Part shown: positions 28,915-44,033 of the stretch, piece after piece | Position numbering within the stretch: the first letter of the stretch is position 1 | Layout: the number at the start of each line of letters is the position of its first letter | NCBI GenBank assembly: GCA_958295945.1 | Contig: OY282386.1 | Location: forward strand, 4,582,204 to 4,646,203 | From: Candidatus Poribacteria bacterium | Lineage (GTDB): Bacteria > Poribacteria > WGA-4E > WGA-3G | Length of the DNA stretch: 64,000 nucleotides | Direction of reading: 5' to 3' | Made by a program: the position numbers and the translations under genes | The notes under the pieces: model-generated | What the model was told of the DNA's origin: nothing | The model's input: only the letters and a program-made list of their open reading frames with translations | Databases searched by the model: none

Positions 28915-29007
28915 TAAAACACATTTTGACAATCAAATATACATTCCAAAATATTACATTGATTAGATAAATACACGATGTCTCAAATTGCCTATCTGGA
29001 GGATTGT

Positions 29008-29811
29008 ATGAGCAATCGGAAATTAGTAATTCCGCAATCAGAAGCAAAGAAACTACTTTCACTCCCAACCCGCAAAGCTGAACAACTTTTTCAAAGCTAC
29101 GATAAAGAACAACAACTGGAAATAATACGATCTACACGAAACCCTAAACAACGAGAAGAATTATACTATCTTGTTGAAGATTGTACGGAACTTATTCAGG
29201 ACAGTCCCACAGAAGATGTGTTACAAGTCTTAGATACACTTCTTGGGACAGGCCTCGCTTGTGGTCTATTGCCATGTCTATCAAACGAACAATTTGAAGA
29301 AATCATGGATATTGCTGTGTGGCGGGACGGAAAATTGGACGAACGCACACTAAGTCTATGGTTGTTTGAGTTGTCTGAATGTGAACGTGATGACCTTAGT
29401 CGATTCCTGCAGCAACTTGACATACGTATTCTTGCTGGACTCCTCAAGAACCGCGTAAAACTAAAAGGTGCACTCAGCGCGATGATGATAGAAGAAGGAA
29501 TCATTGATCCGAAATCTTCTTCTATAGAATGTAAAGATGATCAAGCAAGAGCAATTCTAAATGCAATCTGGGAAGCGGATGACGATCTGTTCATCCAGTT
29601 GTTGCGAGAAATGTTCTCAATTGACAAAGAAACAGATGCAGAGGAAGATATAGACAAAGCATTAGAAAAGGCAAAAGATGATAGAACTGAACGAGTCAAA
29701 GCACGTGATAAGGAAGCTGGAATTAATATCACAGAAGCGGAAATACAAGAAAAAGTTGATTTGGATTCACTTGAACTTGCTGAGGACAGTGGGAAAGATG
29801 CAGACAAGTAA
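29008..29811 (+). CDS. DUF6178-like protein, N-terminal half
   Basis: The 267-residue protein contains LSLPTRKAEQLFQ, ELYYLVEDC, LSNEQFEEIMDIAVWRDGKLD and LSLWLFEL, which resemble the N-terminal part of DUF6178 proteins. A long acidic helix closes it. ATG 29008 is preferred because CTGGAGG lies just before it; the ATG at 28978 has no such site. The next gene starts 14 bases before this stop in the +1 frame and looks like the rest of the same family. Either the gene is naturally split or a frameshift has broken it. Family recall is from motif memory only. Confidence 0.55.
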   Translation: MSNRKLVIPQSEAKKLLSLPTRKAEQLFQSYDKEQQLEIIRSTRNPKQREELYYLVEDCTELIQDSPTEDVLQVLDTLLGTGLACGLLPCLSNEQFEEIMDIAVWRDGKLDERTLSLWLFELSECERDDLSRFLQQLDIRILAGLLKNRVKLKGALSAMMIEEGIIDPKSSSIECKDDQARAILNAIWEADDDLFIQLLREMFSIDKETDAEEDIDKALEKAKDDRTERVKARDKEAGINITEAEIQEKVDLDSLELAEDSGKDADK

Positions 29812-30763
29812 GTTTTCTCTCGTCGCAGATGCAAACATTGATGGGAAGTCATTCTTAGCAAGAACCATGGTGCATGGCGATAGTCTCGGTAGAATTGACG
29901 ATGAAAAATCCGAAGTGCTATCCGAAGATATCGCCGCACTCGCACACAAACTAATTACCATGAAAGTTGATGACCTATCAGATACATCCCAACTTCGTTC
30001 ACAGATCCAAACTTCTTTTGCATTAACAAGCCTCGGATTAGAATATGGAAGCAAAGGAAACTTAGACAAAGCCGTCAATGTGCTACTTGCCAATCCTATT
30101 GTCAAGTTTTTCCAAATTGGAAATACACTTACGGATAAGTTAATTCAGAAAGCAAGTCACTTACTTCAAAATGCATTCATTCAACCACCAGAAGAACTTG
30201 AACATCTGGATATTGATAGCATCCGAATCTACAACTTCGCGGAAGCAGAATTCCTGAATGCTATACCTTCATATAAAACTACTATTGCATCTTCACAAAT
30301 TTCAATCAACAATACACATGAACCAAGATCCTTCAATACATTATCTGATTTGGAGATAATCCGACAACAACTTGACTACATTGAAGCGCGATGGACTTAT
30401 GTTCAAGCGTTACCGCATGACGAGATTTTCTCTGTTGACCCACCCTTCAGTATCGCAATTGACCCTATACAAACGATAACTCTCAATTTAATGGCAAATC
30501 TAACACTGTATTTCCAACCCGACTTTCAGGTAGAATCAGACACAGTTGAAGATTTTAAAGACATCATCTTTGATGAAAAGACTAGAGAGATTCGATCTGC
30601 ACCGCGACAACGATTGCTTGAATGGATAGAAAACTATCTCGCACAGTACAACCGTTCTGACGATGAAATTAGGTACGCTGTCAATTATTGGGATTCCTGT
30701 TTACAATCACTTATTTATCCAGAATCCAATCTCGTTGAAAAGGTTTGCAACCCCGATTTCTGA
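29798..30763 (+). CDS. DUF6178-like protein, C-terminal half, or partner protein
   Basis: The 321-residue protein starts MQTSKFSLVADAN and is mainly helical and soluble. It includes FALTSLGLEYGSKGNLDKAVNVL, LEIIRQQLDYIEARWTYVQAL and a C-terminal LLEWIENYLAQYNRSDDE. The start at 29798 overlaps the upstream gene by 14 bases, so they are co-translated; a longer in-frame extension back to 29678 would overlap by more than 130 bases and is less likely. No signal peptide. Function unknown; it should be considered together with the upstream gene. Confidence 0.6.
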   Translation: MQTSKFSLVADANIDGKSFLARTMVHGDSLGRIDDEKSEVLSEDIAALAHKLITMKVDDLSDTSQLRSQIQTSFALTSLGLEYGSKGNLDKAVNVLLANPIVKFFQIGNTLTDKLIQKASHLLQNAFIQPPEELEHLDIDSIRIYNFAEAEFLNAIPSYKTTIASSQISINNTHEPRSFNTLSDLEIIRQQLDYIEARWTYVQALPHDEIFSVDPPFSIAIDPIQTITLNLMANLTLYFQPDFQVESDTVEDFKDIIFDEKTREIRSAPRQRLLEWIENYLAQYNRSDDEIRYAVNYWDSCLQSLIYPESNLVEKVCNPDF

Positions 30764-33276: not shown

Positions 33277-34866
33277 TTGAAAACGAAGTATATTATTGTC
33301 TTATTGATGACTATTATCATTTTTTATGCATCTGCAATTGATGTGAATCCACAAGAAACAGAATCTAACATTTCTGTCAAAGTTGAAACACCACGAAAGG
33401 TTACCATAGTATCTGAAAAGACTTACAATGGACATCTACAACCCCGTGCAGAAGTCAAAGTATATGCAAATATCTCAGGGAAAATCGTTAATCTCAATGC
33501 AGTCGCAGGGCAAACAGTAGCAAAAGGAGATGTGCTTGCACAAAGCAGTGCACGACAGGCAAGTATAGCAGCGATTAAGGCAGAAGTCGCATTAAGTGTC
33601 GCGAAATCGCAACTGACAACAACAGAAGCAAACGCACAAACCCGTGTCGAAACGCAGCTTGTCACTGCCAAAGAGTCGGTCGCAGAAGCTGAAGCAAAAC
33701 TTGAAGAAACGATATCTCTTGCTGAAATGCGAATTCGCAACAAATTGGTAGAGGCGAGATCGACTTTAAAGGTTGCAGAGTCTAACTATGAACGTGCAAA
33801 AATCAGCTCTGAAAAAGGATTGGAACGCGCCAAAACCGAATTTACAAAGACTACATCAGATTTTGAACGCGATAAAGAACTTCATACACAAGAACTCATC
33901 AGCGATAGTGCCTACGAAGCATCTGAAACTCGTTACAAACTAGGTAAAAGCAGATATGAAGAGGCAGTTGCAGCAGCAGATCAGTTCAAAGATGGTTCCG
34001 CCAAACTGACTGTGGAGAAAGCACGAGCAGAATTGATTGTTGCACAGAAAATCGTTGAGAGTCAAGGCTGGGAACGGGAAATCGCTGCAGCGGAATCAAA
34101 GGTCACTCAAGCAAAATCAAACCTTATAACAGCGCAAAAACTTGTAGAAGCAAAATCTTGGGAACGGGAAATCGCAATTGCAAAATCAGCAGTCAGTGAA
34201 GCTGAAGAACAATTGAAACTTGCACAAGAACATGTGAATGATGCTGTGGTAACATCTCCTATTGATGGTGTAATTGCCAAAAGACACCTTGAAGTCGGTG
34301 AATATGCAAAATCCGCATCCACTCCAGGAGAACCAATATTCACTGTCGTCGCAATGGATGTCCTAAAAGCAGTTTGGACAGTACCTATAAGCGACATCAA
34401 CATAATAAAAAACGGTAATATGGTGCTAATTTCGACCTCTTCAGGCATACAAAATATCGTTGCGACAATTGACTACATTAGTCCTACTGTCAAACAGGGA
34501 GAGAACACGGTTATAGTCCATGCTACATTACCTAAGTCATTACAATTGTTAGCAGATACAGATTCTACAGCACCGACCCAGAATAGTGCTTTAAAACCAG
34601 GGGTGTCAGCTACTATTTCAATCAAAACAGGAGAACGCAAAAACGTATCTTTACTACCACGTCGTTCTGTTATAAACATCCAGAATGGCAAAGGTTACAT
34701 TTTTGTCGTTGAGGGGAATGTTGCTCGCGCGAAAGAAGTGAATGTCGGGGGTGTATATGGCAGTGAAATTGAAGTAAATACACGTCTAACACAAGCATCA
34801 CAAGTGATAGTTGACAACCAGCATCTACTGAAGGATGGTACGCCAGTTTCTGCTATTAGAGACTGA
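33277..34866 (+). CDS. HlyD/AcrA-type periplasmic adaptor (membrane fusion) protein
   Basis: The 529-residue protein starts with a signal peptide (about 1-21), then a split lipoyl domain whose first half is VKVYANISGKIVNLNAVAGQ. An exceptionally long coiled-coil hairpin (about 85-320) rich in Ala, Glu and Lys follows. The second lipoyl half is VTSPIDGVIAKRHLEVGEYA, leading to beta-barrel and membrane-proximal domains. Such proteins bridge an inner-membrane pump and an outer-membrane channel. No pump or TolC gene is adjacent. Start is TTG 33277 with GGGAGG nearby. The hairpin includes an internal duplication (WEREIA twice, 35 residues apart). Confidence 0.88.
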   Translation: MKTKYIIVLLMTIIIFYASAIDVNPQETESNISVKVETPRKVTIVSEKTYNGHLQPRAEVKVYANISGKIVNLNAVAGQTVAKGDVLAQSSARQASIAAIKAEVALSVAKSQLTTTEANAQTRVETQLVTAKESVAEAEAKLEETISLAEMRIRNKLVEARSTLKVAESNYERAKISSEKGLERAKTEFTKTTSDFERDKELHTQELISDSAYEASETRYKLGKSRYEEAVAAADQFKDGSAKLTVEKARAELIVAQKIVESQGWEREIAAAESKVTQAKSNLITAQKLVEAKSWEREIAIAKSAVSEAEEQLKLAQEHVNDAVVTSPIDGVIAKRHLEVGEYAKSASTPGEPIFTVVAMDVLKAVWTVPISDINIIKNGNMVLISTSSGIQNIVATIDYISPTVKQGENTVIVHATLPKSLQLLADTDSTAPTQNSALKPGVSATISIKTGERKNVSLLPRRSVINIQNGKGYIFVVEGNVARAKEVNVGGVYGSEIEVNTRLTQASQVIVDNQHLLKDGTPVSAIRD

Positions 34867-34895: not shown

Positions 34896-36956
34896 TCAGT
34901 CAACATCTGTCCCTGAATTCAGATTTACAATACTCAATATTGCAGTTGAGGATAAACCAAATTCTTTTGATAGCATAGATAAAGGTTCTCCTGCAGCAGA
35001 ACGTAACCTAATGACTTTCACTTGCTCTTCAGTCACTATCGCTTGAGAACGATTTGGGATATTAACCATTGCTGTATTCTCACTCTCTTCGGTCGTTTTA
35101 GTAGTTGTTTCACTTTGATTTCCATTTTTCATATTTGAAAAATGGTGATCTTGTTCATGTATTGTTTGCTTGTTTTCAGTGTCTAAAGTATCAAGGATTT
35201 TCTCCCAGATTTGTTCAATGGAGTCCATACCAAGCTGATAGGATTCACGATTTACTTTCTCTCTTAGTTTTTTACCTTCAGAATATATCTTTGAATCTTC
35301 CAATTGTCTGTTTTCCGATTCTAACAGTTTGATATCCTGATTGTCTCTTTCAACGAACTGGAGTTCTTCAAAAATAGCAGTCCCAGTTTCAACAACAGTT
35401 ATTTTCATATCCAAATCTTGGCACAATTTTTCAAGGTTTACAGGTTTTCCATTTGTTTTTCCGTGCTCTTTGACATAGTTATATATTTTCTTTAATGTAT
35501 CTCGATCTGGATGCTTGTCATTTAAATCTTGCTTATAAGAATCATATCCTTGTTTGGTATCGTATATAAGATGCAGATATGCGTTCTGTGTTGGCATGAA
35601 AGCCTGTTGGCACTGTTTGCAGAACTCGTCTAAATCTAAGATTGGATGACAGAAGACAAAATGTTCAATTGCATGCGTGTCAGGTATCGTGGTAAAAGTA
35701 GCACTTGAAACAACGGCGATTAGATCACCATTTGCAAGTCTGTCTAACAACTCACTTTCATCAGCATCAGATGAATAATCGTTGTGTCTTCCAATAGAGT
35801 CTGCTTTCTCGCCTGCGATGTGTTTGAAGAATACATCTGTTTTCTCTTCACAGTCCACATAGATTATTGAGGACTGATTCAGTTCTAAGAGATTAGTTAG
35901 GTAAGACTTTCTGTCAGTGTTACGTCTGTCAAGAATACGGACTGAGGAATCTATATCATAAGAAGGAAAAACTGCAAACGATGATATATGAAGTTGTTTT
36001 TCAATTTCAATGAGACGGTCTTTGTATTCTCCAGTCTCCTTTTCTAAAACAGCATATTTCTCACTCATTGATTCAAGTTGATTCGTATTGTTTTTTTTCT
36101 CATCTGCAAGTAGAGTCTTGTATCTATTATTCTCATTTTCTGTTGCTTCAATCTGCTCATTTAGGGTTGATACATGTTCCTTTAAACTTTCGTGTGCTTT
36201 GATCTCATCAGCAAGTTGTTTTTCTTTCGACTTTAGACTCATATCTGTCATATTCCATGTGTCTTCTGTTTCTTTCAACTCTTCTGAAAGTTTAGAATAG
36301 GCTTTTTCTAATTCTTCCTTTTCTTCCTTTATTTTTAATAATTCATCTATACGTTTCTTGTTTTCAGATTGCTCATTTTTTATTTCTTCAAGTAGTTCAT
36401 TTGTTTCCAAATATTTACTTTTAAATTCTTTTTTCTCAGTTTCTACTTTCTCAATTTGATCTGACAGTTCCGTAATTCTCTTTTCAATATCGGCAGATAA
36501 TAATTCATTGCGGATTTTTAAGACTTCATTTTGTTGATCAGATCTGTTAATAATTTTCAGAATATCTGAAATTAAGAAAAGGTGTGTTTGAGCAAATTCA
36601 ATATCTAAATCATTTGCTCTGTGTTCACATTTATTTCTCCCTTTTCTTATAATCCATAACATATTTTGTGCAACTAAATCATTGTCAAATTTATGAGCAA
36701 AAACTTCTTCCCAATATATCTTGATGATATGAGGAATATAGGTGAAGTCTATCGCTAAACCAATATCATCATGCTCATCTAACATCTGATGGAACTGACC
36801 TATTTGATTATCATACAATACATCCTCAATAAATTGCTGAACATTTCCACCTTGGACTTGCTTTAAATTATGGACAATGAATGTTCGCATAACATCTAAA
36901 TAGATATCATTCGCTTTACGTAGAGCATCTCGATTTGGGTAATCATTGTTGTTCAT
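34896..36956 (-). CDS. Swt1-like HEPN domain, long coiled coil, RecJ C-terminal-like domain and C-terminal helix-turn-helix
   Basis: The 686-residue protein has several zones. Residues about 8-150 look like a Swt1-type HEPN domain and contain RNKCEH (R107, H112), the Rx4-6H motif of HEPN ribonucleases. About 150-340 is a continuous Glu/Lys coiled coil. About 345-560 (RILDRRNTDRKSYL, AVVSSATFTTIPD, HFVFCHPILDLDEF, then HPDRDTLKKIYNYV and IFEELQFVE) resembles the C-terminal domain of RecJ exonucleases, without the DHH nuclease part. A Ser/Thr-rich linker leads to a resolvase-like helix-turn-helix (EEQVKVIRLRSAAGE to STAILSIV). The domain calls are from motif memory. A defence or RNA-cleaving role is inference. 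Confidence 0.6.
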   Translation of the reverse strand: MNNNDYPNRDALRKANDIYLDVMRTFIVHNLKQVQGGNVQQFIEDVLYDNQIGQFHQMLDEHDDIGLAIDFTYIPHIIKIYWEEVFAHKFDNDLVAQNMLWIIRKGRNKCEHRANDLDIEFAQTHLFLISDILKIINRSDQQNEVLKIRNELLSADIEKRITELSDQIEKVETEKKEFKSKYLETNELLEEIKNEQSENKKRIDELLKIKEEKEELEKAYSKLSEELKETEDTWNMTDMSLKSKEKQLADEIKAHESLKEHVSTLNEQIEATENENNRYKTLLADEKKNNTNQLESMSEKYAVLEKETGEYKDRLIEIEKQLHISSFAVFPSYDIDSSVRILDRRNTDRKSYLTNLLELNQSSIIYVDCEEKTDVFFKHIAGEKADSIGRHNDYSSDADESELLDRLANGDLIAVVSSATFTTIPDTHAIEHFVFCHPILDLDEFCKQCQQAFMPTQNAYLHLIYDTKQGYDSYKQDLNDKHPDRDTLKKIYNYVKEHGKTNGKPVNLEKLCQDLDMKITVVETGTAIFEELQFVERDNQDIKLLESENRQLEDSKIYSEGKKLREKVNRESYQLGMDSIEQIWEKILDTLDTENKQTIHEQDHHFSNMKNGNQSETTTKTTEESENTAMVNIPNRSQAIVTEEQVKVIRLRSAAGEPLSMLSKEFGLSSTAILSIVNLNSGTDVD

Positions 36957-37037: not shown

Positions 37038-38174
37038 TTATTTTTGACCTAAGACATAGACCTGAATGTTTTCCCATTTTCGTTTTGACCTATGGGTTGC
37101 GACACGCCTTTTGATGATAGATTGGCATTCAAAACCTGAATCGTCAATGATGGATTCAAGGTTTGCAATTGCCTTCGGTCCAGATGCATCTGCATATCCT
37201 AACAAGATGATTCCATCAGGTTTTAAGTAGTTTGGAACTTGTTCAAAAAATCGAATCAATGTTTGCTGTTTTTCATCGTGGATTGCGATTTCTGACCTAC
37301 TTCTGACCCGGGCAACTACCCACGGCGCATTGAATATTATGACATCAAATAGCACTGATTCAAATGGATCAAACAGGTCACCTGCTTGCATGACGTTCAC
37401 ATTTTCATTATCTGAAAGTATATGCTGAACGTTCAATTTTGTTGTAGCTACTGCTTCCGGCAGTATGTCAGAAGCATAGATGTTAGCAGCTTTGCCAAAC
37501 TCTTGATGTGCAAGTAGTGTTAAGCATCCACTGCCACAACCGACATCTGCTATAGTTGAACTTGACTCTGTTAGCTTCTCTGAAACGGACTGAATTGCTT
37601 CTTGAAAACATTCTACAGTTTCCTGAGAACGCGGTGCCAACACATTTTCTGATGCAATAAGGGATGCATTGAGTGCGTGAATAGGATGACTCTCTACAAG
37701 TGCACGCTGGAGACGCTGCACTCTAACAACCGATATCAGAAATGGACAGTCTTCGTTAGCATCTGGTTGCTCACCAAGTAACTCCAAGAGAGAAGGTAAG
37801 TCTGGTGTTGGATCGACTTGGAGAATTCCATCTTTATCTGCCCAACACATTAACTTAGAAAGTGTATTTTCCCTATTCTGTTTTGTGTTATATCGTTTTT
37901 CTTGAGATATGCGCTTTTCATATTTTTTGGTCTTTGTTTCTGTAGAAAGTTCATTTTTGTGCTGCTCAATGTAGTCCATCACAGAGGAAATTTGTTGCCA
38001 TTCTCCCTCAACAATAGCAACACCACCGCGTTGAATATGTGTGAAAATGCGATCAAAGTTCTTTAGCTCTTGATTCGGAAATAACTTAACACCACCTCGT
38101 GCAAACACCGCTTCACGAAATTCTGTGGGGATATATAGTTCACCAATTGGATTTATAGAATAAAATGCATTCAT
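37038..38174 (-). CDS. Class I SAM-dependent methyltransferase (HemK/PrmC- or RlmG-like)
   Basis: The 378-residue protein has an N-terminal region of about 190 residues that I do not recognise, with a basic stretch (KTKKYEKRISQEKRYNTK). It is followed by a Rossmann methyltransferase: DVGCGSGCLTLLA (SAM motif I), IYASDILPEAV, GDLFDPF, and the catalytic-type IIFNAPWVV in place of NPPY. NAPW suggests methylation of an amide or base nitrogen as in PrmC/RsmC/TrmN6 relatives. Substrate not assignable. It starts 11 bases after the oxidoreductase stop, so they are probably co-transcribed. Confidence 0.75.
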   Translation of the reverse strand: MNAFYSINPIGELYIPTEFREAVFARGGVKLFPNQELKNFDRIFTHIQRGGVAIVEGEWQQISSVMDYIEQHKNELSTETKTKKYEKRISQEKRYNTKQNRENTLSKLMCWADKDGILQVDPTPDLPSLLELLGEQPDANEDCPFLISVVRVQRLQRALVESHPIHALNASLIASENVLAPRSQETVECFQEAIQSVSEKLTESSSTIADVGCGSGCLTLLAHQEFGKAANIYASDILPEAVATTKLNVQHILSDNENVNVMQAGDLFDPFESVLFDVIIFNAPWVVARVRSRSEIAIHDEKQQTLIRFFEQVPNYLKPDGIILLGYADASGPKAIANLESIIDDSGFECQSIIKRRVATHRSKRKWENIQVYVLGQK

Positions 38175-38185
38175 CTACAAGTGTT

Positions 38186-39235
38186 TTATTGAATTGCTAC
38201 AATTTCTCCAGTTCTAACGGATTCTGCTTCTTTGTAACAGAGAAGGAGTGCATCTCTTGCCCCAACTCCAGATAGTGCTGTTGGTTCTTCGTTATTGCTG
38301 ACTGCATCAACGGCATACTGTATCTCAGCGGTAAAGGCATCAATCGGATCTACCTCACCTAAATCTACCTGTTCCACATTACCATCTTCGGTGATAAGGG
38401 TCAACGGCATAGTTGTGGTAGGTTCACCAGCAAGTGTAGAGAAATCAAATAGGAGCGTTGCTTTCTCAAGAAACATCTCAAACCCGTGTGAAAATGCTCT
38501 CCCTTTTTGCGATATTGCACCTGATGAACAACTGACAGTCAGGTCTTTGTCCTTGTAAATATATTGTGTCGTTAAGAAGTCAAGGAAATTGCCTCCTGCT
38601 ATTTTCCCTTGTGAAAACACGGCATCTGGAACACCACAGAGCAATTGGATAAAATGTGTGTCGTGTATGTGTAAGTCTATACCGGGACCACCGCTCTTTT
38701 CAATGTCTGCTAAATCCCGAGACCAACTCGGTTTTGAGATAATCCTTTTGAAATGTGCACCGAGAAGTTTACCGTATTCGCCATTTTCAACAAGTTGTTT
38801 TGCATAAGCATATTCTGCAAAGAATGGGAGCACGTGAGCCACCATAAACTCTTTATCCGTTTGGTTTGCAAGTGCGACAATTTCATTTGCATCGTCAATG
38901 TCAATAGCAATAGGCTTTTCAAGGAGTGTGTGTTTACCGGCATTTATTGATGCCATGCTTACGGATTTATGCAAATGTGTAGGTAGACAGATATCCACAA
39001 GATCAATCTCATCATCTGCAAGGAATTCGTCAATCTGATTGTATGTTTTGATGTTAGAGAGGTCTTCCATTCCGCCACGTGGTCCAAAATTACCTTGAAT
39101 ACCAGTCCAATCACCTTGTAGTTTTTTCGGGTCACGTGTGCAGATTGCCACCACCTCAGCACCAGTTCCGCGTTGGATGCCGTAATAGTGAATCATTCCC
39201 ATAAATCCGATACCGATTATTCCGATTCTTACCAT
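38186..39235 (-). CDS. Gfo/Idh/MocA-family oxidoreductase
   Basis: The 349-residue protein begins MVRIGIIGIGFMGM, a Rossmann NAD(P) motif, followed by VAICTRD, DLVDICLPTHLH and the signature LLEKPIAIDIDDA. The C-terminal alpha/beta domain includes GPGIDLHIHDTHFI, carrying the expected catalytic His/Asp. Such enzymes oxidise or reduce sugars, inositols or their derivatives. ATG 39235 is chosen because it starts the Rossmann strand and an AGGATAG precedes it; an upstream extension adds a non-homologous tail. First gene of a pair with the methyltransferase. Confidence 0.9.
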   Translation of the reverse strand: MVRIGIIGIGFMGMIHYYGIQRGTGAEVVAICTRDPKKLQGDWTGIQGNFGPRGGMEDLSNIKTYNQIDEFLADDEIDLVDICLPTHLHKSVSMASINAGKHTLLEKPIAIDIDDANEIVALANQTDKEFMVAHVLPFFAEYAYAKQLVENGEYGKLLGAHFKRIISKPSWSRDLADIEKSGGPGIDLHIHDTHFIQLLCGVPDAVFSQGKIAGGNFLDFLTTQYIYKDKDLTVSCSSGAISQKGRAFSHGFEMFLEKATLLFDFSTLAGEPTTTMPLTLITEDGNVEQVDLGEVDPIDAFTAEIQYAVDAVSNNEEPTALSGVGARDALLLCYKEAESVRTGEIVAIQ

Positions 39236-39331
39236 TTGTTCTATCCTTGTTTTATAGAAGAAGGCACAGATGACATATCCTATAGGATAGACACCTGTGC
39301 CATCCATGTGTTAGAAAACTGTCGTTAATAG

Positions 39332-42943: not shown

Positions 42944-44033
42944 CAGGACTTACGCATTTTTATAAAATGGTGTATACTATTCTATTATGACTACATGGAC
43001 ACAATCTAAAAAGAAGGAAAACCTATTTTCCGATTATTGTCAATTTTTGTTATCAAGTTTTACGAACTGGACGCAAACGTACTTTGGTGATCAGTCTGAG
43101 AAATGGAGCCATGATCAACTCAATCGTTTTTTGAGAAATGAGAACATTCCATCAAGCGAACTCTGGCAGTCTGTCCAGGATGACATTGAGTTTGATGATC
43201 AAGGGCACATTGCTTTTGATGATGTTGTGCTACCTAAACCGCATGCGAAAAAGATTGAAGCTCTCCGTCCTCAGTGGAGTGGTAGCGACAAAAAAGTCGT
43301 TGATGGCATCGGTATTGTAACGTGTCTCTATGTCAACCCAAAGACGCAAGAGTATTGGATCATTGATTATCGCATTTACGACAAAGACCATGATGGAAAA
43401 ACCAAAATAGACCATTTATTAGACATGCTGCAAAACGCGGTCTTCAAAAAACAACTCCCGTTTCGGACGGTGCTAATGGATAGTTGGTATGCATCCATGC
43501 AAGTCATGAAAGCGATTGAAAAACTTTCTAAGATTTATTATGTGCCACTGAAACGCAATCGTCTTGTAAACGATACGGACGGCGTTGAACCACACCAACA
43601 AGTCCAAAAGTTATCTTGGACACAGACAGAAACGCAACACGGAAAGCACGTGCACATCAAGAAGTTTCCAAAAGGGCATCAAGTGAAGTTGTTCCGGTTA
43701 GTCTCCTCTAACGGACGCACGGAATATATTGCGACAAACGATTTATCTCAATCGGATGCGGATGCGACACGCCAAGAATGTCGCGTGCGTTGGAAGATTG
43801 AACAACTTCATCGTGAGATCAAACAAGTCACCGGTATTGGTAAATGTCAATGCCGCAAGTTGCGTGCCCAAAGAAATCATATTGCTTGTTGTTTTCAAGT
43901 ATGGGTCTGTTTGAAACGTGTTGCGCGCAAACATGGTAAAACAATTTATGAACTAAAACAAAGTTTATTGGATGATTATATGCGATTTCAACTCTCTAAT
44001 CCTTCAATAATTTTTAAAAATGCGTAAGTTCTG
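42944..44033 (+). mobile_element. IS701-like insertion sequence, 1090 bp
   Basis: The terminal inverted repeats are CAGGACTTACGCATTTTTA (left) and CAGAACTTACGCATTTTTA (right, complement), 18 of 19 identical. The 5-bp target duplication CCTAG flanks it at 42939-42943 and 44034-44038. It contains one transposase gene. The clean ends and intact transposase suggest a recent insertion into the giant gene, on the opposite strand. Confidence 0.92.
42987..44027 (+). CDS. IS701-family DDE transposase
   Basis: The 346-residue protein shows FDDVVLPKPHAKKIE, VDGIGIVTCLYVNPKTQEYW, the second acidic motif LMDSWYAS, and RWKIEQLHREIKQVTGIGKC with the third catalytic Glu. The ending RAQRNHIACC matches the same family. 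The D-D-E triad is intact and the frame is full length, so it should be active. The coding region ends inside the right terminal repeat. Confidence 0.9.
   Translation: MTTWTQSKKKENLFSDYCQFLLSSFTNWTQTYFGDQSEKWSHDQLNRFLRNENIPSSELWQSVQDDIEFDDQGHIAFDDVVLPKPHAKKIEALRPQWSGSDKKVVDGIGIVTCLYVNPKTQEYWIIDYRIYDKDHDGKTKIDHLLDMLQNAVFKKQLPFRTVLMDSWYASMQVMKAIEKLSKIYYVPLKRNRLVNDTDGVEPHQQVQKLSWTQTETQHGKHVHIKKFPKGHQVKLFRLVSSNGRTEYIATNDLSQSDADATRQECRVRWKIEQLHREIKQVTGIGKCQCRKLRAQRNHIACCFQVWVCLKRVARKHGKTIYELKQSLLDDYMRFQLSNPSIIFKNA

Follow-up and report, generated by a model that had tools for sequence, protein, structure and literature searches.

What would a protein do that carries a probable HEPN ribonuclease domain on the tail of a RecJ exonuclease? 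The question is raised by a gene in a window of 64,000 nucleotides (the whole stretch of DNA analysed) from Candidatus Poribacteria bacterium, a sponge symbiont whose genome is a single contig of 5.34 Mb. Both parts are well known, and the joining of a HEPN RNase to a non-catalytic RecJ tail was not found in the literature searched; no description of the complete order HEPN, coiled coil, RecJ C-terminal region (RecJ-C) and helix-turn-helix (HTH) was found there either, in agreement with the first-pass annotation, whose architecture was almost wholly borne out. Strongest among the new observations are the fixed chromosomal slot of the gene, the single RecJ origin of its core and the exchange of both ends of the protein.

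The Gene and Its Detection

The open reading frame at 34896-36956 lies on the minus strand, begins with ATG, has AAGG on the 5' side of the start codon and encodes 686 amino acids. Between pairs of relatives dN/dS was about 0.14-0.49 over the domains; thus the protein has been kept functional by purifying selection, and the frame proposed in the first pass is real. When the 686-residue protein was searched singly against Pfam, NCBIfam, PADLOC, and PDB, coiled-coil stretches alone were matched. The PADLOC models gave no match outside the coiled coil, along which the JetC, LmuB, and DruC models aligned. Considering that single-sequence searches saw only the coiled coil, alignments of relatives were needed to read the protein.

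The N-Terminal Domain

Residues 1-155 (36492..36956, minus strand) form a Swt1-type HEPN domain, with the Rx4H motif R107-N-K-C-E-H112 at 36621..36638. All 37 proteins of one alignment, namely, the window protein and 36 from related genomes, have R107 and H112, as do all 33 domains of a second alignment. The letters between the two residues vary widely (RNKCEH, RNRASH, RNADWAH, and RNQIAH), and some of the 37 proteins have the spacing Rx5H. The Pfam family HEPN_Swt1 (PF18731) was matched by all 15 N-terminal domains scanned, with a best E value of 2.4e-10. The window domain alone reached E 0.0014 and 19.4 bits, which is below the curated cut-off of 27.5 bits; the domains of two relatives exceeded it, with 36.3 bits in L040 and 30.0 bits in L092.

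The AF2 model of residues 1-155 was all-helical, with a mean pLDDT of 93.3. Its three highest-Z matches in VIA-align were HEPN structures, the closest solved fold being the C-terminal domain of yeast Swt1 (4pqz; Z 8.5, 127 residues, rmsd 3.3), followed by the HEPN domain of Csm6' (Z 8.0) and that of A. fulgidus AF0298 (Z 7.1); middling Z values come easily with helical bundles, and the range of 7.1-8.5 is by itself no proof of a HEPN domain. The assignment therefore rests on profile, motif, and fold jointly. Both the Swt1-type domain and the RNKCEH motif had been proposed from the sequence alone, and neither the profile check nor the conservation check spoke against them.

The Coiled Coil

The coiled coil covers residues 156-322 (35991..36491, minus strand), a stretch with no proline and 46% charged residues (E, K, R, and D). 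Its hydrophobicity peaked at a period of 3.5 residues with a power of 10.6, compared with 0.2 and 0.3 in the flanking domains. All 26 family members had, at the same place, a stretch of 106-184 residues rich in charge and poor in proline. The coiled coil of the first-pass annotation is thus real and heptad-periodic, and its length is about 167 residues, not the 190 or so given there.

The RecJ-Derived Region and the Tails

Residues 326-600 were 36% identical over 279 residues to the C-terminal region of the RecJ of the same genome (E 3e-48 in a two-sequence comparison, E 1e-40 in a genome search); judged by sequence, this is genuine homology. In profile searches the DHH, DHHA1, and OB domains were present in the genome's own RecJ and absent from the 686-residue protein, and a housekeeping RecJ variant was rejected for lack of DHH. 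Among PDB entries, the RecJ-C model matched S. aureus RecJ best in Foldseek (8y30, E 4.3e-6), with MrfA and RecQ next. The earlier description of a region like the C-terminal domain of RecJ, with the nuclease part missing, was therefore correct. When 26 family members were aligned with 19 genomic RecJ proteins, nineteen positions proved to be conserved in 90% or more of each set.

Three parts can be distinguished on the minus strand. Residues 326-482 (35511..35981) have a degenerate alpha/beta fold like helicase domain 2, supported by the identity to RecJ, by Foldseek, and by Pfam Helicase_C, which matched in 8 of 16 relatives and in the genomic RecJ. Residues 483-545 (35322..35510) are a winged helix according to the secondary structure of the model, the RecQ-type domain 2 and winged helix (RecQ D2-Zn-WH) found among the top structural matches, and PF10141, which matched in 2 of the 16 relatives scanned. 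Residues 546-600 (35157..35321) are the helices after the winged helix, with L552, S555, and W584 conserved in the alignment. The region of motif VI reads FCKQCQQAF, so that the arginine-bearing motif is lost, and when the protein was examined as an SF2 helicase no domain 1 with Walker motifs was found. Taking into account the loss of motif VI and the lack of the first RecA-like domain, the protein should not be an ATP-driven helicase, and an active helicase was rejected. A helicase-like match elsewhere (G016:C36) was, by sequence, an ordinary RecQ-like helicase.

The C-terminal HTH occupies residues 640-686 (34899..35039, minus strand). Three helices were predicted with high confidence at residues 643-678 (pLDDT about 80-90), which upholds the helix-turn-helix of the first reading; its label "resolvase-like" is not borne out, with a weak HTH_38 match in 1 of 16 family members alone. 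The family has at least five alternative tails, the HTH among them. The full HTH tail was common to 5 of the 26 members, and the others differ or have no tail: besides the HTH there is a 'IAWKKIREELGL' module, a 'FWQPIRAGEFG' module, and two more.

A Fixed Chromosomal Slot

One border of the slot is a Rossmann methyltransferase (37038..38174, minus strand; Pfam Methyltransf_31/MTS/PrmA), which lies 81 bp upstream of the HEPN gene on the same strand. It is preceded by a GFO/IDH/MocA oxidoreductase (38186..39307, minus strand), found by Pfam in 22 of 26 loci. The other border is a convergent HlyD-family periplasmic adaptor (33277..34866, plus strand; Pfam). The methyltransferase was beside the HEPN gene in 24 of the 26 loci, and it is retained in genomes without that gene, where HlyD adjoins it in empty slots. 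The usual order is oxidoreductase, methyltransferase, and HEPN gene, facing HlyD and MsrA (15 of 26 loci each); of the loci without the last two, some reach the contig end and others have different genes there. No terminator-like site was found between methyltransferase and HEPN gene.

In a search of 60 related genomes the full architecture was limited to one family of Poribacteria, with two genera. The gene was present in 17 of the 36 genomes of the family, and one further genome (G011) retained in its slot a decayed copy that is interrupted by an in-frame stop (L133:5871-6974). An alignment-based scan of genome contigs gave 33 loci, nearly all from Poribacteria, and the same scan with the single 686-residue protein as query gave no match. 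In three genomes (G003, G004, and G017) the slot was empty, no more than about 15 bp separating methyltransferase from HlyD; the gap without the HEPN gene was 285 bp in G005 and 52 bp in G035. In G012 the slot held instead a protein of HEPN and coiled coil that ends in DUF7669. On the methyltransferase tree, presence and absence of the gene require at least six changes.

Relatives of the gene were absent from the phage, plasmid, and viral-contig collections scanned, which gives no support to a gene carried by phages or plasmids. Nor was an antitoxin or immunity gene identified beside it; in particular, the locus has no adjacent MNT nucleotidyltransferase as in HEPN/MNT toxin-antitoxin pairs, its flanks being the methyltransferase and HlyD. 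Considering that the genes around it are metabolic and conserved, a setting in a defence island is not supported either. The constant position suits an endogenous system better than a mobile island.

Mosaic History of the Protein

In the tree, the RecJ-C module was one clade (100/99) beside the RecJ of the same family, as would be expected if that RecJ was duplicated once. The HEPN domains on this one core fell into three clades, interleaved with HEPN proteins that have other C-terminal parts, and well-supported branches of the HEPN tree forced at least five label changes. The HEPN domains of L066 and L072 fell in clade C, and those of L031, a slot protein with RecJ-C, and L046, with another C-terminus, were sisters (99/85).

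The same discordance was visible in pairs of proteins. L025 and L081 were 82% identical in RecJ-C, 42% in HEPN, and 28% in the coiled coil, while L069 and L081 were 90% identical in HEPN and 70% in RecJ-C. The synonymous divergence (dS) of the first pair was about 2.1 in HEPN, near saturation, versus 0.47 in RecJ-C, and that of the second pair was 0.20 versus 0.82. Since dS differs about fourfold from domain to domain within a single gene pair, the gene is a mosaic made by recombination; such dS values speak for exchange and not for unequal constraint, and ancient paralogy was rejected as the sole cause on the same fourfold difference. An artefact of metagenome binning was rejected as well, because L024 and L072 are in single-contig chromosomes and yet share 80.5% identity in RecJ-C and 39.7% in HEPN. 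As read from these comparisons, both outer modules have been exchanged around a constant RecJ-C core at one fixed locus. The mosaic members are natural chimeras with which one may ask which part senses and which kills, and the swapping of both protein ends resembles the way in which bacteria handle the parts of defence and stress systems.

Related HEPN Fusions and Known Systems

The HEPN domain was matched in 52 of 85 genomes of the phylum, nearly all in the family of the HEPN-RecJ-C gene. The partners of this subfamily in the phylum include the HmaC/DUF499 ATPase, DUF4268 with Mrr_N, Mrr_N alone, triple S1, and UDG. The HmaC/DUF499-type ATPases are proteins of about 1100 residues that begin with a HEPN domain of this subfamily (L040:6308-9715, L041-L044, and L054-L057); the PADLOC HmaC match of the HEPN-DUF499 fusion had E 9.5e-234, and in L040 that model matched from residue 193 onward alone. 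HEPN-coiled coil-DUF4268 proteins were seen at L048:7185-9062, L090:5195-7129, and L049:512-1813, two of them with Mrr_N, and the DUF4268 part of L048 and L090 matched the PADLOC candidate defence family PDC-S11. A uracil-DNA-glycosylase superfamily domain follows HEPN at L045:7069-8232 by Pfam, and L058:5374-7548 looks alike by eye. Repeated S1 RNA-binding domains follow it at L052:3981-5459 (three, by Pfam) and L059:6477-7601 (by eye), and these fusions are an RNA-directed counterpart of the other HEPN tails. To the DUF499 fusion already described, the poribacterial set thus adds RecJ-C, DUF4268, DUF7669, S1, and UDG as HEPN partners.

By comparison with known systems, the closest likeness is to the Hma or Type-1 BR system and its HEPN-DUF499 proteins (the Ava_2192 class of Anantharaman 2013), which also have an N-terminal Swt1-type HEPN domain and whose HEPN-DUF499/HmaC fusions with the same subfamily occur in related Poribacteria genomes. 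In published work the HEPN domain of the DUF499 ATPases is seen as a suicide RNase of last resort (PMC12839542, which builds on PMC3710099). The window protein differs in having coiled coil and RecJ-C in place of the DUF499 ATPase, and its locus differs from the Hma operon in having, by Pfam, the oxidoreductase, the MTS/PrmA-like methyltransferase, and HlyD, and neither helicase nor DNA methylase. With the C-terminal region of RecJ (PF10141; S. aureus RecJ 8y30) it shares about 275 homologous residues and a common origin with the family's RecJ; where RecJ has the DHH, DHHA1, and OB domains, it has HEPN and coiled coil instead. The nearest solved relative of the N-terminal fold is yeast Swt1, but in eukaryotic Swt1 the HEPN domain is fused to PIN and is thought to be inactive (PMC3710099). 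The CoCoNuT systems resemble the window protein in combining coiled coils with nuclease effectors, HEPN among these (PMC11090510), but they are defined by McrB/McrC homologues, of which there were none among the flanking genes scanned; the paper that describes them makes no mention of RecJ or Swt1.

Proposed Function and Alternatives

HEPN RNases generally work as dimers. We consider that there is about an even chance that the gene encodes a one-gene HEPN ribonuclease effector, probably of defence or stress, gated by a non-catalytic recognition module made from a RecJ tail. The long coiled coil would hold two HEPN domains together and so create a composite Rx4H active site. The C-terminal part would be non-enzymatic, the duplicated RecJ region (pseudo-helicase domain 2 and winged helix) serving for recognition and the exchangeable tail after it binding DNA or a partner. 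Considering that the C-terminal domain of D. radiodurans RecJ binds the SSB tail and HerA (PMC4846377, PMC4663267), the cue might by analogy be, most plausibly, either single-stranded DNA ends or the SSB and helicase partners bound by RecJ tails. Once the cue is engaged, the HEPN pair would be switched on and cut host RNA, leading to arrest or death of the cell as an abortive defence or stress stop; an antiviral function may be supposed. If the RecJ tail gates the RNase in this way, arrest at the RNA level would be tied directly to events at single-stranded DNA ends. This gated effector is favoured by the HEPN fold with its invariant R and H, by a coiled coil conserved in every member, by a RecJ-C region that forms one clade, is free of DHH, DHHA1, and OB, and consists of a degenerate helicase domain 2 with a winged helix, by the HEPN exchange, and by the patchy presence with clean empty slots; the fusion of the same HEPN subfamily to HmaC, DUF4268/PDC-S11, and Mrr_N, which are known or candidate defence parts, also speaks for it. 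Against it are the metabolic neighbourhood, the lack of relatives in the phage, plasmid, and viral collections, and the fact that no neighbouring antitoxin or immunity gene was found.

Non-defence RNA processing is possible for HEPN proteins with intact motifs. A rather unlikely alternative is a housekeeping RNase of RNA processing or coupled to repair, whose RecJ-like tail would bring it to places where recombination occurs or replication has stalled; there it would remove RNA (transcripts, R-loops) with no suicide or defence involved. The fixed slot among conserved metabolic genes, the purifying selection (dN/dS about 0.2 in both HEPN and RecJ-C), and the action of RecJ tails in repair (PMC4663267) agree with such a role, but the repeated absence or decay of the gene in sister species and the exchange of its catalytic domain and tails would be out of the ordinary in core repair; a conflict or stress system accounts better for the scattered losses and the swapping of modules. 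A copy that arose once from the RecJ of the family and is now free of the nuclease would also suit an integrated decoy or guard, in which the copy mimics the host RecJ tail and triggers the HEPN RNase when invader proteins that attack or hijack RecJ or SSB at single-stranded DNA ends bind to it. The 19 positions that the copy has kept in common with RecJ in an otherwise diverging sequence, and a shuffling of modules as in arms races, point the same way; however, the fold alone can explain the shared positions, and we know of no invader protein of this kind. We regard the decoy as improbable. Its fullest form is correspondingly speculative and would be a bacterial analogue of the integrated decoy immune receptors: a RecJ-tail bait firing a HEPN RNase dimerised by the coiled coil, with the one slot acting as an allelic cassette that exchanges HEPN and tail modules between species. 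It is very improbable that the HEPN part is structural or RNA-binding and non-catalytic, the protein being a nucleic-acid-binding scaffold or regulator that acts through its HTH and winged helix. Several modules do look suited to binding nucleic acids, and the HEPN domain of eukaryotic Swt1 has been inferred to be inactive (PMC3710099), but in the present family R and H are strictly kept in very divergent members, those with altered spacing included, which is the opposite of what is seen in inactive HEPN families.

Other Features of the Window

Rfam identified no family in the 64-kb window. A DUF6178 protein is encoded on the plus strand in two overlapping frames, 28978-29811 and 29678-30763, which cover the N-terminal and the C-terminal portion of the Pfam model, respectively; as 14-15 relatives also have the two genes apart, the split is an old fixed feature and not a sequencing error. 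A transposase-like open reading frame is located at 42987-44027 on the plus strand, near LamG-type proteins.
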